Assembly: GCA_016281495.1 (NCBI GenBank) | Contig: JAEEIU010000012.1 | Location: 1-64,000, forward strand | Reading direction: 5' to 3' | Source: Treponema sp. | GTDB lineage: Bacteria; Spirochaetota; Spirochaetia; Treponematales; Treponemataceae | DNA: 64,000 bases | Shown: piece by piece, positions 29,344-52,297 of the stretch | Layout: every line of letters begins with the position of its first letter | How positions within the stretch are numbered: position 1 is the first letter of the stretch | Notes under the pieces: model-generated | Seen by the model: the letters and a program-made list of their open reading frames with translations, nothing else | Databases searched by the model: none | What the model was told of the DNA's origin: nothing | Translations under genes and position numbers: made by a program

Positions 29344-29616
29344 ATGTTAGTAGAAACTTCACAAATGATGCCAATAACAAAACTTCAAAAAGAACTCACC
29401 CAAACTGTAAGGAAAGTGTCTGAAGGAAATGAATCTATTTATATCCTCAAAAATAACAATATGGAAGCCGTGATGATTCCATTTCAGCAGTATGAATATC
29501 TTTCAATGCTTGAGGAGGTATTTGAAAGGCTTGAAATTGCACAGAATATAAAAGACCGCATGAAACATTATGATGCCTCTAAAAACATTAGCTGGGATTC
29601 AATAAGGGAAGACTGA
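29344..29616 (+). CDS. Phd/YefM family antitoxin
   Basis: A 90-residue antitoxin, MLVETSQMMPITKLQKELTQTVRKVSEGNESIYILKNNNMEAVMIPFQQYEYL, the usual Phd/YefM pattern (N-terminal dimerisation and DNA binding, C-terminal toxin-binding tail). Start follows GAGAGGTGA. It overlaps the toxin gene by one base (TGATG). It should repress its own promoter through the A+T palindrome and neutralise the RelE-type partner. Confidence 0.87.
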   Translation: MLVETSQMMPITKLQKELTQTVRKVSEGNESIYILKNNNMEAVMIPFQQYEYLSMLEEVFERLEIAQNIKDRMKHYDASKNISWDSIRED

Positions 29617-29945
29617 TGGAAGAAGAAAAAAAAGAAATTCAGATTCAGTTCATTCCAGAAGCAGTGGAGGATTATAAAAGACTTGATGGGAGTCAGAAAA
29701 AGCCGGTAAATAAGGAAATTGATAAACTAAGGACAAATCCATTTGCAGGTGGAGAACTTGGAAACAAAGACAATGTTGATTTAACAGGCTTTTATAAATT
29801 ATATGCTTGTAACAAAAGTATAAGAATTGTTTACCGCTTGCTTACTCCAGAAAAAGTAGAAATTGTTGAAATCTGGGGAATCGGAAAAAGAGATAAACTA
29901 AAGATTTATAAAATAGTTGGAGAACGATTGGGAAAATTAAAATAA
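29616..29945 (+). CDS. RelE/ParE-superfamily toxin
   Basis: A 109-residue basic protein with the RelE fold pattern: FIPEAVEDYKRLDGSQKKPVNKEIDKLRTNPF, then LTGFYKLYACNKSIRIVYRLL and a C-terminal IWGIGKRDKLKIYKI. Lys/Arg/Tyr residues typical of mRNA interferases are present, but the exact subfamily (RelE or ParE) cannot be settled by eye. It is in the toxin position behind a Phd-type antitoxin. Confidence 0.83.
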   Translation: MEEEKKEIQIQFIPEAVEDYKRLDGSQKKPVNKEIDKLRTNPFAGGELGNKDNVDLTGFYKLYACNKSIRIVYRLLTPEKVEIVEIWGIGKRDKLKIYKIVGERLGKLK

Positions 29946-31508: not shown

Positions 31509-31663
31509 TGTTCAGCAGATTGTTTATTGTAGATAAATAGTTTTTTTTTGATATGGAAAAACATTCTGTAAATGGATATAAGAACCGGCTGATGATTCAT
31601 ATTGGCTCTGGGATGAATAGATTCATACAAATATTTATCATCACCAGACAAAGGAGTAAAAAA

Positions 31664-32146
31664 ATGAAAAACAAAAGAATTATAATATTTTTGATATTCT
31701 CGATTTTACTACAGAGTATTTTTGCACATGATGAATCTCCGGCTGACAAATTAACATACTTGGAAAATGAGCATGATTATTATGACCAATATTCTTTAAA
31801 AGAATCGCTGACTGCAAGTGATTGTGAAAATCTTGAATTCATAAAATGGCTCTTCGAATATGAAAGTGGAATTGAAATAAACGACAAAAACATTGAATTG
31901 ATTAAACCAGATTATTTAGGTGGGGTCCCTGTACAAATCACGGAGCTTCCGTATTATTATAAAATTAATCTTTCAAATTCAGAATACAAACAATTGAAGA
32001 AGGCTCTTAAAAAGAATGATAATTGGGAAATATCTAAGGACGGCAAAATATCATTACTCCTTGTAACAAAGTTTTATTTAGGCTGTGTTATAAAAGAAAA
32101 AGAGTTGATTTTTGGATTCAGTAATATGAATTTAATTCGTCCATAA
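31664..32146 (+). CDS. Small exported protein, unknown function
   Basis: A 160-residue protein starting MKNKRIIIFLIFSILLQSIFAHDES, a clear Sec signal peptide with cleavage near SIFA-HD. The mature part is acidic and mixed alpha/beta with no recognised family. AAAGGAG precedes ATG 31664; an upstream in-frame ATG at 31553 would bury the signal peptide. It is the first of a run of A+T-rich envelope genes. Confidence 0.6.
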   Translation: MKNKRIIIFLIFSILLQSIFAHDESPADKLTYLENEHDYYDQYSLKESLTASDCENLEFIKWLFEYESGIEINDKNIELIKPDYLGGVPVQITELPYYYKINLSNSEYKQLKKALKKNDNWEISKDGKISLLLVTKFYLGCVIKEKELIFGFSNMNLIRP

Positions 32147-32622: not shown

Positions 32623-32658
32623 TTGTCAAATGACCTTAGCGAAATGAGAGGATATAAA

Positions 32659-33603
32659 ATGAATAAAAAAAGTGTTCTTAAACTAATTCTTCTTTTTCTT
32701 TGCATTGGCATTTATTGTCTTTCTCCAGAAGAGGAATACGATTTTCTAATAAAGGATTTATATAATTATTCAACTTATGCTTACAAAAGAACCTTTGATG
32801 TTGATGCCGATAAAACCGACGGAATAATAAATCTGTCACAAGGCTGTATTCAAACAACAGATTTTAATTTAGATATTGCCATTCAGGGAGATGGATTCTT
32901 TACGGTTAAAGATGAAAAAGGGAATATATATTACACAAGATATGGAAAACTTAGGTATGACCATGAATCTTGTTCTTTGTATATCTTGGTTAACAATTCA
33001 AAATATTTCTTAGATTTAAAACCCTTCCCTAAGTATCCTCTTATGTCTGACGAAATTCATATCCACAGGAATGGAAGTGTTGAGTGTATAATTCCAGAAG
33101 AATCAAGCTATGAAAATGATGATAGAACTAAAAGCATATCTGAAATGTTCGAATTAAGAAACGGATTAAATGGAAAAAGAATAATTGATAACAAAGAGTT
33201 TAATGAAATAACCGTAGAGAAGAAAAAAGAAAAAAAAGAAATAATTGATAAAATTCCCTTATATAACATTGACGAATCAAATATAGATTCTTATGACGGT
33301 TATCTTATTAAAACAAAACTCCCCCCAAAAACAATTGACAACCCTCATTTTATACCGGGCGCATTGGAATTGAGTAATGTTTATCTTGATAAAGTTCTAA
33401 TAAGGATGTTATTCGTAATTGAAAAATTGGATGACAACCAAATAAAACAAAAGGAAACAAAAAAGTATTTAATTCAAAAAATGCTTGACCCAAATTTTAT
33501 TAGAGTTATTTTATTTGGATATTTTTATGAAGAACATCCAAACCTGGATGATATCAGCGGATTAAAAGAGTATGTTCATTTTCTTGAACGATCTTACGAA
33601 TAA
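32659..33603 (+). CDS. Exported protein with FlgF/FlgG-like rod-protein features
   Basis: A 314-residue protein. Residues 1-22 are a hydrophobic signal (KLILLFLCIGIYCLS). Then come an N-terminal rod-like motif (LYNYSTYAYKRTFDVD, compare N-ANxxTxGYKR), the FlgE/F/G core at residues 57-101 (INLSQGCIQTTDFNLDIAIQ then GDGFFTVKDEKG…YYTRYGKLRYD) and near residue 250 GALELSNVYLDKVLIRM, like the C-terminal GxLExSNVDxxxEMxxM. True rod proteins leave through the flagellar apparatus and lack a Sec signal, so this is an unusual relocated relative. It sits among exported proteins, not flagellar genes. The role is unknown. Confidence 0.65.
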   Translation: MNKKSVLKLILLFLCIGIYCLSPEEEYDFLIKDLYNYSTYAYKRTFDVDADKTDGIINLSQGCIQTTDFNLDIAIQGDGFFTVKDEKGNIYYTRYGKLRYDHESCSLYILVNNSKYFLDLKPFPKYPLMSDEIHIHRNGSVECIIPEESSYENDDRTKSISEMFELRNGLNGKRIIDNKEFNEITVEKKKEKKEIIDKIPLYNIDESNIDSYDGYLIKTKLPPKTIDNPHFIPGALELSNVYLDKVLIRMLFVIEKLDDNQIKQKETKKYLIQKMLDPNFIRVILFGYFYEEHPNLDDISGLKEYVHFLERSYE

Positions 33604-37846: not shown

Positions 37847-40765
37847 ATGAAACTGGTGAATGATTTTGTTGGCGCAGGTATGTCCATCATCGTGCTTTTG
37901 TCAAATCTAGGACTTTATCCGCAGAAACTTGAAGTAAAGAAAGACTTGCACAAGGAAATTCAACTCAAGATAAAGGAAAGTGATGAAGAATTCAAAAACA
38001 TGACCGTGGAATTCAAACCTCTTGAACGATTTGAGTTTGACAGCGAGGGACGGGAAACTTATTACGAAGATTTGAGTAATGGCGCATGGTTTTATGACAT
38101 TTATGAATACTACAACAAGGCAGAACTGAAAGGCAAACAGAACGATAAAAAGCGGATTGCAACTTACGACAAAAACGGCAGGAATACATACTTGGTCAAG
38201 GAAAATGCAAAAGGAGAGGAAGAGCTGGTCCGCGAGTATGGCAAGAATGGAACCCCAATCCACATCAAGGGTAACATCATGGATTTTAAGGATTTCTTTG
38301 AAAACAGGGACGTGGATGTTTACTGGCGCAGTTGCACGGAAATCTGGCTTGACGAAAATGGGAATGTGACCCATGCCATAAGTGATCATGGATTTGAAGA
38401 ATGGTTTGAGTATGACGAAAATTCCAATTGCCTTCACAAATGGAACAACAAGGGTTATGACTGCAAATCCGAATATGATAAAGACGGAAATCGAATTCAC
38501 CTTTATGTTAAGTCTCCAACGACATATAGCAGTTATTCTAAAGATGCCACAAAGGAAATGTGGATGACATATTCGGCCGACGGAAAGATGCTTACCGAAA
38601 AGTCTGAATTGAATTTTTATGACGATAATACTTATACAAATAAAGTCAGTTTTAACAACTTTTACTCAGAGTATGAATACGACAGCCAGGGAAGGCTTAT
38701 AACGGATAATACCATAGTAAGCGACACGACATACGAAGTCGAAGACGAATTCTACCGCATGAAGATAAGCTACATTTATTCGGATGACGAAAGGACATTC
38801 ACAGAAAGAACAGAGTATCACTATTACGAGGATGATGCGTTTGCAGAATTAATATACAGCGAACTGGAAGAGATAGAAACACTAAATGATGAAAAAGGCA
38901 GGCCGCTTCGTATTTTGACAAGGGGATGTGAGCGTTGGGATATAGACGAACCTAATCCAGATTTTGATTATGAAGATGAAGAGTTGTACAGCTACGATGC
39001 GGACGGAACCCAACACCATATAATTTCTACGGGAGAAGAAGATGCATATTCTCCAAACGGCAACATCGTTTATTCAAAACAAAACATCTACAGCAACGAA
39101 TGGCGCGAAGAACGTTATCTCGACAATGACAGAAAACAGGATACCTATGCCACACACTACAAAATCCTGAAAAACGGTAAAAAGGAAGTTACCTACGAAG
39201 CCTGGACCGAATATGATGATGCTGGAAGGGAAACACATTACAAATACCTGTCCTACACCAGCGACCGCCATCCACAGGAAGAATCATGGCACGAGTACAC
39301 ACCCGGCGGAAACCTTAAGTACGAAAAGAAGCTGAAGGTTGAATATGAGGATCCGGACACAGGTTTGTATTCACCTGTAAAGACGGAAAAAACTGAGGAA
39401 TACATATCCACCTTTGATGAGCATGAAAATGAACTTTCTTTAGACATGTATGAAAACGGCGAGAAAACAGACTATTCAAGAAAAGGTTCATATAAATATG
39501 ATGACCAGGGCAGGATGACCTATGAGTTCCACGGCAATTACTACGAAGGAAAATTGAGTGAAAACACAGAGGGCTGGTATGAATACGACGAAAACGGATA
39601 TCTTACCCACAAGAAACTAAAGGGATACAGCACATCATCTTTTGGAAGCTACAAGCCGGAAAGCGTTCCCATGTGCGAATACTTTTTTGTAAATCAATAC
39701 AGCTACCACAATAATGGCAAAGTAAAGGAATGTGTGCGGTATTATTACAAGAATGAATTCTACGAGCGTGACTGGCAGCCAGATCTTCTTCGCCTTGCTG
39801 ATATAGAGGAAGCCAAACAGCCAAAGAAACCTGTCATTGTTCCCGACCCCATGAATGATGGAAAAGATTATGTTGAAGAAATCCGTTTTGAATCTTCATC
39901 AAAATACATCGGCATAAACAACAACTTCTGGGGTGTAGTTGCAAATACTACGGCTCCGGTTTACGAAAACATTCAGCACAAGTTTGGAGACGAGCCTGCG
40001 TTCACCATGAAAAAAGGTGATGCGGTAAAGCTTCATGCAGTGTCCAAGGACGGTTACCAGTACGGCTCCGGGGACTTTTTCCACAGATGGAAGATTGAAA
40101 CTGATGACGGCAAGACTGGCTGGATATCGGGACATGACCTAATTCCAGTCGGCATGAGGAATGATGTTCCTCCGATATATGCAAATTATTTTGTCGTGGT
40201 CGGAAGCTATCCAGGATACCTGATGGATGCAGGAAAGTTTACCCTTTGTGTAACGGGAAGCAGTTATGGTTCCATGGGATTTTACAATGGAGACATCCGC
40301 TATGACACAGGCATGACAGGCGACACTCCATTCTATATGGAAGGATTTGTTGTAAGCCGGACAGACAGGAAGCGTGCCTATCGCTGGAATGAAGAGGGGG
40401 GATGCTTTGTGTCAGAGTATTACGAAAAGGCAAAAGATTCCGACCAGTGGAAGCTTGTTGAAACAAATGAAAGTTCTACAAGTGAAAATGAAACAATACT
40501 TCGCATAAAAGGATATTATTATTCAGAAGAATACTATGCGGCAAAGAACGCCATAGAAGACAACGACATGGATCTGCTTTCAAAAGTTATTGCAAGCGGC
40601 TACAAGGCAGACACGATGGAAGAAGACCAAAGTTTGCTTCTCTGCGCCATCAGAAACAATAACCAGACCGCCTTGGACATGATGCTTGAAAACGGATTCT
40701 CCCGCTATGTGTATGTTCCGGGAGAAGAAGATGTGTACATGGTGGACATAGACGAATGGCGTTGA
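37847..40765 (+). CDS. Large YD-repeat protein with SH3-like and ankyrin-like C-terminal parts
   Basis: A 972-residue protein with an N-terminal hydrophobic segment (signal or anchor), then about 600 residues of RHS/YD-type repeats (EYDENSNCLHKWNNKGYD, EYDSQGRLITDN, KYDDQGRMTYEFHGNYYEG, EYDENGYLTHKKLKGYS), an SH3-like block at about 690-760 (FWGVVANTTAPVYE…KTGWISGHDL) and a short ankyrin-like tail (LLLCAIRNNNQTALDMMLENGF). No toxin domain or RHS core box is visible. It belongs with the repeat proteins at 40878 and 51458. Function unknown. Confidence 0.7.
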   Translation: MKLVNDFVGAGMSIIVLLSNLGLYPQKLEVKKDLHKEIQLKIKESDEEFKNMTVEFKPLERFEFDSEGRETYYEDLSNGAWFYDIYEYYNKAELKGKQNDKKRIATYDKNGRNTYLVKENAKGEEELVREYGKNGTPIHIKGNIMDFKDFFENRDVDVYWRSCTEIWLDENGNVTHAISDHGFEEWFEYDENSNCLHKWNNKGYDCKSEYDKDGNRIHLYVKSPTTYSSYSKDATKEMWMTYSADGKMLTEKSELNFYDDNTYTNKVSFNNFYSEYEYDSQGRLITDNTIVSDTTYEVEDEFYRMKISYIYSDDERTFTERTEYHYYEDDAFAELIYSELEEIETLNDEKGRPLRILTRGCERWDIDEPNPDFDYEDEELYSYDADGTQHHIISTGEEDAYSPNGNIVYSKQNIYSNEWREERYLDNDRKQDTYATHYKILKNGKKEVTYEAWTEYDDAGRETHYKYLSYTSDRHPQEESWHEYTPGGNLKYEKKLKVEYEDPDTGLYSPVKTEKTEEYISTFDEHENELSLDMYENGEKTDYSRKGSYKYDDQGRMTYEFHGNYYEGKLSENTEGWYEYDENGYLTHKKLKGYSTSSFGSYKPESVPMCEYFFVNQYSYHNNGKVKECVRYYYKNEFYERDWQPDLLRLADIEEAKQPKKPVIVPDPMNDGKDYVEEIRFESSSKYIGINNNFWGVVANTTAPVYENIQHKFGDEPAFTMKKGDAVKLHAVSKDGYQYGSGDFFHRWKIETDDGKTGWISGHDLIPVGMRNDVPPIYANYFVVVGSYPGYLMDAGKFTLCVTGSSYGSMGFYNGDIRYDTGMTGDTPFYMEGFVVSRTDRKRAYRWNEEGGCFVSEYYEKAKDSDQWKLVETNESSTSENETILRIKGYYYSEEYYAAKNAIEDNDMDLLSKVIASGYKADTMEEDQSLLLCAIRNNNQTALDMMLENGFSRYVYVPGEEDVYMVDIDEWR

Positions 40766-40877: not shown

Positions 40878-41780
40878 ATGAAGTTAAAGAATCCTGCCTT
40901 GATTTTAACCTTTCTCGCACTCAGCACATTCCCCATATTCGGACAGAATGCCGGACCAGAGGTCGGGCCAAAGGTCGGGGATGTGATTATTAAAAATGTT
41001 AATGTGGATGGCAAACCAACTCCAAAACTTGTGGGTGTTTATTCATTTTTTGAATACACAAAGGATGGAAAAGAATTATATGGCATTGAACTGGACTCTC
41101 GAGAATTTTTAAATGAATATGACTCAAAGGGAAATGCAGTACATAAACTCCTGGTCACTTCAACAGGCCAAACAGAATCTTGGAGAGAGTTTGATAAAAA
41201 TGGAAACATAACACACTGTACGGTAATCAGTAACATAATAGGCGATATGGAATATTGGCGGGAATATGACAAAAAGGGAAATATGATATACGACCATCGA
41301 ATCGGTGAAGAACTTGGTGATTATGAATATTGGTACGAATATGACAAAAAAGGAAACCAGATTCATTACAAAGTTTCCACAGGCTTTGAAAAATGGTTTG
41401 AGTATGATTCAAAGGGAAACTTAATTCATGTTTATACATCCGACGGATATGAAGAATGGTACGAATACGATAAAAAAGGAAACAAAATCCATTACAAAGA
41501 ATCAAGTGGTTTTGAGGAATGGTGGGAATATGATTCCAAGGGTAACATGATATATTCAAAAAACAACACTGGCCCTGAAGAATGGTACGAGTATGACAAG
41601 AAGGGAAATGAAGTCCATGCAAAATGGACTTTTGATGATTTTGAATATTGGAAAGAGTATGATTCCAAAGGAAATGAGACACATATAAAGTATGCTTCCG
41701 GAACAGAGATATGGTACGAATACACTTTCCACTCCAACGGAAAAGTTAAGACAAAAACAAGTTACATGGCCATCCAATAA
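40878..41780 (+). CDS. Secreted 21-residue-repeat protein, paralog 1
   Basis: A 300-residue protein with a signal peptide (MKLKNPALILTFLALSTFPIFG) followed by about nine tandem units of 21-24 residues built on W-x-EYD-S/K-KGN-x-IHxKxSxGxE, a YD/MORN-like repeat. It ends YTFHSNGKVKTKTSYMAIQ. The signal peptide, repeat and end block match the protein at 51458-52297. A ligand-binding solenoid is likely; its target is unknown. The ATG has TTAGGAG upstream; the YcaQ-like gene follows after 15 bases. Confidence 0.72.
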   Translation: MKLKNPALILTFLALSTFPIFGQNAGPEVGPKVGDVIIKNVNVDGKPTPKLVGVYSFFEYTKDGKELYGIELDSREFLNEYDSKGNAVHKLLVTSTGQTESWREFDKNGNITHCTVISNIIGDMEYWREYDKKGNMIYDHRIGEELGDYEYWYEYDKKGNQIHYKVSTGFEKWFEYDSKGNLIHVYTSDGYEEWYEYDKKGNKIHYKESSGFEEWWEYDSKGNMIYSKNNTGPEEWYEYDKKGNEVHAKWTFDDFEYWKEYDSKGNETHIKYASGTEIWYEYTFHSNGKVKTKTSYMAIQ

Positions 41781-51457: not shown

Positions 51458-52297
51458 ATGAAACTAAGGACCCCGATCTTGATTTTTTCATTTATCGCAC
51501 TTAGCACACTCCCGCTATTTGCACAGGAGCTAGGCGATAAAATTTCCAAGAAAGTCATGGTGAAGGGCAAGCAGCTTTACAAGTGGCTTGAGTATGACCG
51601 CATCCAAGAATATGACGAAAATGAAAATCTAATCCATGACAAAGATGCCTACGGCCATGATATCTGGCTCGAATATGACTCAAAGGGAAATAAAACTCAT
51701 GTAAAAGACGGTGACATGTTTGAGTGGTGGCTTGAATACGACTCTAAGGGAAATTTAATCCATGACAAAGATTCTTCCGGCGCTGAGTGGTGGTATGAAT
51801 ATGACTCCAAGGGATATTTAATCCATGAAAAAAAATCCACCGGAGCTGAGTGGTGGTACGAATATGACTCCAAAGGAAATAAAATCCACGAAAGAAAATC
51901 CTCCGGTTCTGAGGGGTTGTACGAATATGACTCAAAAGAAAAGAAAATCCTCGAAAGAAAACCCGACGTTTTTGAAAGTTGGTTTGAATATGACTCACAG
52001 GGAAACATGATTCATGCAAAAGATTCCACTGGCTCAGAGTACTGGCACGAATATGACTCAAAGGGAAATAGTATCCATGATAAAAATTCTTCCGGCTATG
52101 AGTGGTGGTACGAATATGACTCAAAGGAGAATTTAATCCATGAAAAAGATTCTACCGGATTTGCCTGCTGGTACGAATATGACTCAGATGGGAATGAAAT
52201 TCATGGCAAAATCTCTTCTGGCTTTGAATATTGGTACAAATACACCTTCCACCCCAACGGAAAGGTAAAGACAAGGAAAAGATACGTATTGCCCTAA
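51458..52297 (+). CDS. Secreted 21-residue-repeat protein, paralog 2
   Basis: A 279-residue protein with a signal peptide (LILIFSFIALSTLPLFA type) and nine or ten tandem 21-residue units, E-W/Y-W-Y-EYDSKGN-x-IH-x-K-x-S-S/T-G. At DNA level the units are about 63 bases and alike enough (51660-52240) for slippage. It ends YKYTFHPNGKVKTRKRYVLP, as in paralog 1 at 40878. CAGGAGG precedes the ATG. Probably a secreted or periplasmic solenoid; function unknown. Confidence 0.72.
   Translation: MKLRTPILIFSFIALSTLPLFAQELGDKISKKVMVKGKQLYKWLEYDRIQEYDENENLIHDKDAYGHDIWLEYDSKGNKTHVKDGDMFEWWLEYDSKGNLIHDKDSSGAEWWYEYDSKGYLIHEKKSTGAEWWYEYDSKGNKIHERKSSGSEGLYEYDSKEKKILERKPDVFESWFEYDSQGNMIHAKDSTGSEYWHEYDSKGNSIHDKNSSGYEWWYEYDSKENLIHEKDSTGFACWYEYDSDGNEIHGKISSGFEYWYKYTFHPNGKVKTRKRYVLP

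Follow-up and report, generated by a model that had tools for sequence, protein, structure and literature searches.

A Sec-exported relative of the flagellar rod proteins FlgF and FlgG in Treponema, probably a solitary member of an Rhs-linked immunity protein family

The window, that is, the whole 64,000-nucleotide stretch of a Treponema sp. genome that was analysed, carries a gene, P0001, whose product joins a hydrophobic N-terminus to a region homologous to the flagellar proteins FlgF and FlgG (Table 1). The ATG start codon has GAGAGG upstream, and an in-frame TTG at 32623 would lengthen the protein by 12 residues; the close homologs all begin at the equivalent ATG. Full-length orthologs were found at 70-74% identity, and comparison with close orthologs gave a dN/dS of ~0.2-0.25, which indicates a real gene under purifying selection; values up to ~0.8 occurred only in one nearly identical pair.

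Table 1. Features of P0001 and its neighbouring genes (window coordinates)
Feature	Position	Strand	Basis or remark
Exported protein, function unassigned	31553..32146	+	69% homolog in the G048 integron array
Small membrane protein directly upstream of P0001	32194..32622	+	
P0001, Sec-exported FlgF/G-like protein, 314 aa	32659..33603	+	Solitary family member
Signal-peptide-like N-terminus, residues 1-22, in place of the first ~15 FlgF residues	32659..32724	+	12-mer hydropathy 2.9
Remnant of FlgF D0-N helix and hinge	32725..32790	+	PEEEYDFLIKDLYNYSTYAYKR matching FlgF QNRLDAISNNLANVDTTGFKK; hhalign with Treponema FlgF
FlgE/F/G D1 beta domain, residues 60-146	32836..33096	+	Hallmark QG...DIAIQGDGFF...YTRYG; PF22692 4.5e-9; Foldseek to FlgG
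Lys/Glu-rich insert, about residues 147-190	33097..33228	+	Family alignment; pLDDT 31-36 over most
G-ALELSNV, the C-terminal hinge motif of FlgF/G, with altered D0-C helix (residues 233-268)	33355..33462	+	
C-terminal extension, residues 269-314, not in FlgF/FlgG	33463..33600	+	Conserved in clade; ends FLER-Y
Exported SH3-domain protein, next gene after P0001	33624..34556	+	PF08239, weak

The first-pass annotation had pointed out three FlgF/FlgG landmarks lying in order in this protein, NYSTYAYKR, AIQGDGFFTV...YTRYGKLRYD and GALELSNVYLDKVLIRM, and the Pfam, NCBIfam and hhalign results indicated that this resemblance is not due to chance. The Pfam D1 profile of FlgE/F/G (PF22692) matched residues 74-118 above its gathering score, and the NCBIfam flgF profile TIGR02490 matched residues 46-253 (E 1.1e-17), with a score of 64 bits that lies far below the equivalog cut-off of 178.5 bits; the score of 46 against flgG likewise did not reach the cut-off of 252.75 bits. 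In profile–profile comparison by hhalign, the family aligned with Treponema FlgF at E 2e-16, from FlgF residue 16, where D0-N ends, as far as D0-C, and with FlgG at E 7e-17. The leading Foldseek matches of two AlphaFold models, of P0001 and of a T. socranskii member, were all FlgG, FlgF or FlgE chains; taken as a whole, these models are poor (mean pLDDT 52.6 and 55.6), and they are informative for D1 only, where pLDDT was 56-90 for most of residues 80-146 in P0001 (patchy, as block means) and 70-91 in the D1 strands of the T. socranskii protein, while the terminal helices were of low confidence in both.

The family thus shares with FlgF and FlgG (TIGR02490, TIGR02488, PF22692) the D1 domain with QG-x-DxAI-x-GxGFF-x-YTRxG, the hinge motifs NxxTxGYK and LExSNV, and the best structural matches, but it differs from them in having a Sec signal for an N-terminus, in the loss of the D0 helix signatures, in an extra C-terminal segment, and in lying not in flagellar operons but, in the case of several relatives, next to Rhs tips. 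The proposed re-routing of a FlgF/G relative through Sec agrees with the combination of this homology and a signal-peptide-like start, whose most hydrophobic 12 residues far exceed those of the compared FlgF/FlgG sequences (2.9 vs 0.1-0.7) and which was present in 18/18 family members. These proteins are true FlgF/G relatives with an export signal predicted from composition. The location outside any flagellar operon was also borne out: the true FlgF, FlgG and FlgE genes of the genome lie on contig C48, and the window, on contig C20, holds no flagellar genes. The Lys/Glu-rich insert was found only in P0001 and in the rest of the five closest members (G132, G117, G187 and G161) and is absent from the T. 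socranskii members (loci L039/L048) and from that of G048; it is therefore not essential.

The 18 family members were scored at 70 columns that do not vary among 12 FlgF and FlgG sequences of Treponema. The D1 hallmark was largely retained, with Q89 in 15/18, G90 in 17/18, G107 in 18/18, F108 in 14/18 and F109 in 17/18 members, and with T120, R121 and G123 in all 18; at the hinge, E220 was kept in 18/18 and S222-N223-V224 in 13-14/18. The D0 residues R3, G11, M12, N13, Q16, I22 and S23 and the D0-C residues V226, V227, N228, E229, R238 and A239 were found in 0/18 members, and Q15, N24, V29, M230 and Y240 in 1/18. FlgF/G residues 3-16 are gone from the family, and the N-terminus of FlgF/G is the part that carries the flagellar type III export signal.

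Close relatives of P0001 were detected with the first profile in 10 of 200 genomes of the genus Treponema (~5%), to which wider profiles added further family members, whereas true FlgE/F/G matches occurred in nearly all of these genomes; relatives were not found in the viral contigs or plasmids searched. The architecture thus recurs in other Treponema, as the first-pass annotation had proposed to check. P0001, G132, G117, G187, G161, G048, T. socranskii copy 1 and G181 form a solitary close clade, and truncated copies of the family were found in G019 and G137. The members of this clade are the least diverged from FlgF/FlgG, and the tree groups them with FlgF/FlgG and not with the Rhs-linked members (95/96), a placement that long branches make unsure. 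Between P0001 and the Rhs-linked members, identity is only ~20-37%; they share the signal, the D1 hallmark and the C-terminal hinge.

In some genomes the solitary clade is carried as an integron cassette. Treponema is known to have chromosomal integrons (PMC3607928), and like their cassettes the solitary-clade genes of G048 and G161 are bounded by attC-like repeats, with a remnant gene beside such repeats in G137; at these three loci (two intact genes and one remnant) the repeats end ...TTTGTTAT(G). For the window copy, in contrast to such cassettes, no recognisable attC was found in the window. The SH3 protein that follows P0001 is 49% identical to the product of L038 6199-7149, which follows the FlgF/G-like gene in the G048 integron array, and for the small membrane protein upstream, which bears no Rhs tip, no homolog was found in the fetched loci. 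The G048 locus (L038 1-14267) is a long chromosomal integron cassette array with ~15 attC-like repeats and mostly exported proteins, and the short G137 contig with the repeats and the remnant also has a transposase-like ORF (L060 534-1667, IS110-like by eye). In three genomes (L036 5914-6585, L037 5735-6514 and L062 9869-10483) the gene after the solitary FlgF/G-like one encodes a pseudopilin-like protein (GspG-like by eye), which is exported or lipoprotein-like in two of the three. Elsewhere in the window, two overlapping small ORFs at 29344-29945, which share the strand of the island genes, have the look of a RelB/RelE-type toxin-antitoxin pair, and exported proteins of YD-like repeats (WYEYDSKGNxIH) are encoded at 37847-40765, 40878-41780 and 51458-52297. 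The clearest of these has a unit of 63 nt, and the proteins have paralogs in the window as well as a homolog in L040.

Outside the solitary clade, Sec-exported FlgF/G-like genes lie directly downstream of Rhs C-terminal tips (CTs) at eight loci in eight Treponema genomes, and these tips fall into three CT families. CT-A was found in G000, G156 and G046, CT-B in the T. socranskii genomes G133 (ATCC 35535), G169 and G187, and CT-C in G089, where the tip was found through its FlgF/G-like partner, and in G121. G000 is the genome of the window itself, and its second Sec-exported FlgF/G-like gene sits on contig C14 (L042) behind an Rhs tip in a tip/immunity array. When the tips were used as bait, a Sec-type FlgF/G-like gene was next in 8/8 confirmed matches; for CT-A and CT-B, with three genomes each, every match among 196 genomes was linked to such a gene. 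In G121 the CT-C match was seen first (E 0.004, full-length but weak), a FlgF/G-like next gene was predicted from it, and the prediction was then confirmed (PF22692, 1.2e-6). Three other matches of the CT-C search (L117, L118 and L119) were partial in length at E 0.005-0.009; of these, L117 and L119 proved on reading to be no Rhs tips of this sort, with unrelated genes at the match. CT and partner overlap by 8 bp in G000, G156, G089 and G121 and by 1 bp in G133, and they are separated by 3 bp in G169 and G187. In G046 the CT is decayed, its match being interrupted by four stops, and an intact FlgF/G-like ORF lies behind it; a decayed toxin tip beside an intact partner is the usual pattern of immunity genes.

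All of the tips have the Rhs core boundary NPVRYIDPDG before the CT, and partial TIGR03696 matches (4.5e-7 to 6e-3) were obtained in them. No Pfam, NCBIfam, PADLOC or meaningful PHROG match and no PDB sequence match was found that would indicate the function of the CTs. Outside the genus, CT-A gave a single match (E 7.6e-4 over 55 residues) in 296 genomes of the phylum and CT-B none in 215 genomes of the family. Between CT-A and CT-B the similarity is only weak (E 0.07 by hhalign; of four pairs in a shuffle test, two reached z ~3 and the others gave nothing), and CT-C resembles neither. Among sister tips in these arrays, three carry a Peptidase_M91 effector domain (L084 7081-7893, L085 121-1305 and L093 3750-4439), and a small exported protein is encoded behind each of the three. 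Overall, a hydrophobic N-terminus (signal peptide, lipoprotein or TM) was present in 20 of 21 genes after tips, vs 63% of background ORFs (p 8e-4), an enrichment that is modest because the hydrophobicity cut-off was lax. The tip arrays give the impression of toxins that act in the envelope, paired with exported immunity proteins. When the other immunity genes in these arrays were compared with host proteins as a general test of such resemblance, nothing beyond TPR and DUF6438 emerged.

Collectively, these data suggest that P0001 is probably a solitary, orphan member of a Treponema immunity protein family that was built from a duplicated FlgF/FlgG and whose linked members would neutralise Rhs CTs. 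A spare FlgF/FlgG copy would have had its N-terminus swapped for a Sec signal peptide, its D1 beta domain retained and its polymerising D0 helices degraded, so that a soluble protein of the periplasm is to be expected. At the eight Rhs loci the CT would be toxic in the periplasm, where its partner would bind and neutralise it, and the window copy, with no toxin beside it, would do likewise, probably protecting against toxins from neighbouring treponemes. The Rhs-linked members resemble the immunity proteins of Rhs and other polymorphic toxins as described in the consulted passages of Zhang et al. 2012 (PMC3482391) in lying directly behind the CT, in the short overlap and in the orphan CT/immunity arrays, and solitary copies occur there as well. 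The same passages report polyimmunity loci and, for T. denticola, stand-alone immunity genes and immunity proteins in excess of toxins, and P0001 is for this reason read as an orphan immunity protein; they also give a precedent for export in Imm65, with its signal peptide and lipobox, and, unlike the present family, no immunity family is described in them as having a flagellar-rod fold. P0001 itself does not lie downstream of an Rhs CT, its neighbours being the small membrane protein and the SH3 protein, and no Rhs tip adjoins any of the eight members of its close clade in the genomes examined. This absence, the position of the clade with FlgF/FlgG, the low identity to the linked members and the failure to assign a function to any CT were counted against the immunity reading, and the signal, hallmark and hinge common to P0001 and the linked members were counted in its favour, as were the patchy spread and integron cassette setting of the clade. 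Since its relatives occupy the antidote-gene position behind Rhs tips, P0001 most likely serves as an antidote standing on its own and not as a part of the flagellum.

The choice of a flagellar protein for this role may point to the periplasmic flagellum as the target, or it may reflect nothing more than the recruitment of a convenient beta domain. The former is a sub-case of the immunity reading with a target added: the Rhs tips would attack the periplasmic rod or hook, or else its assembly, with the FlgF/G-like protein as a soluble decoy bearing the surface that the toxin recognises. We consider this possible though doubtful. Spirochaete flagella, the organelle of motility, are periplasmic, and it is to the periplasm that the FlgF/G-like protein would be sent; members down to 20% identity keep the D1 hallmark (Q-G 15-17/18, G-FF 14-18/18, T-R-G 18/18, E-SNV 13-18/18) with D0 lost, and three dissimilar CT families have the same partner fold. 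However, the conservation of these residues may reflect no more than their place in the structural core of D1, the recruitment of immunity folds often bears no relation to the target, and no CT domain has a recognisable flagellar link. Toxin attack on the periplasmic flagellum with decoy immunity is speculative, and the wider proposal that treponemes fight with Rhs toxins aimed at this organelle and are protected by secreted rod-protein decoys through target mimicry appears decidedly doubtful.

For P0001 itself the main rival, because its clade is closest to FlgF/FlgG in the tree, is that the solitary clade comprises an accessory periplasmic flagellar factor, e.g., a rod or hook chaperone or cap, from which the Rhs modules later borrowed the fold. 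The low divergence of the clade, the strong purifying selection on P0001 pairs and the fact that Rhs never adjoins its members in the genomes seen are consistent with such a factor; we regard it as unlikely, however, given that the gene is carried by so few of the genomes with true FlgE/F/G, sits in integron cassettes and accessory islands, has truncated copies and is not linked to flagellar genes. The first-pass annotation had instead suggested a novel flagellum-associated or unrelated filament of Sec-exported rod-like subunits, for which FlgF/G homology and periplasmic routing would speak. This suggestion was not supported and is very improbable: hardly any of the 18 members keeps the invariant D0 residues that are conserved for polymerisation, which makes a rod polymer unlikely, the genes are single with no conserved assembly partners, the terminal helices were modelled with low confidence, the gene is sparsely distributed and found in integron cassettes, and relatives stand in the immunity position behind Rhs tips. 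Rejection of the filament was based on D0 loss and gene context. That P0001 is a pseudogene or a chance resemblance, as the patchy distribution and the two truncated relatives might hint, has practically no probability and is refuted by Pfam and NCBIfam E-values of 1e-9 to 1e-17, the full-length orthologs and the dN/dS.

On the immunity reading, the Rhs and polymorphic toxin field gains what appears to be a new immunity protein family; no paper pairing FlgG-like proteins with polymorphic toxins was found in the openly accessible literature searched, including the consulted part of PMC3482391. In this family a rod subunit of the flagellum would have been exapted for use elsewhere, and the family gives annotators a reason against naming proteins of the P0001 type FlgF or FlgG. 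If the immunity works by mimicry, the toxins would act on the periplasmic flagellum, an idea that is testable.
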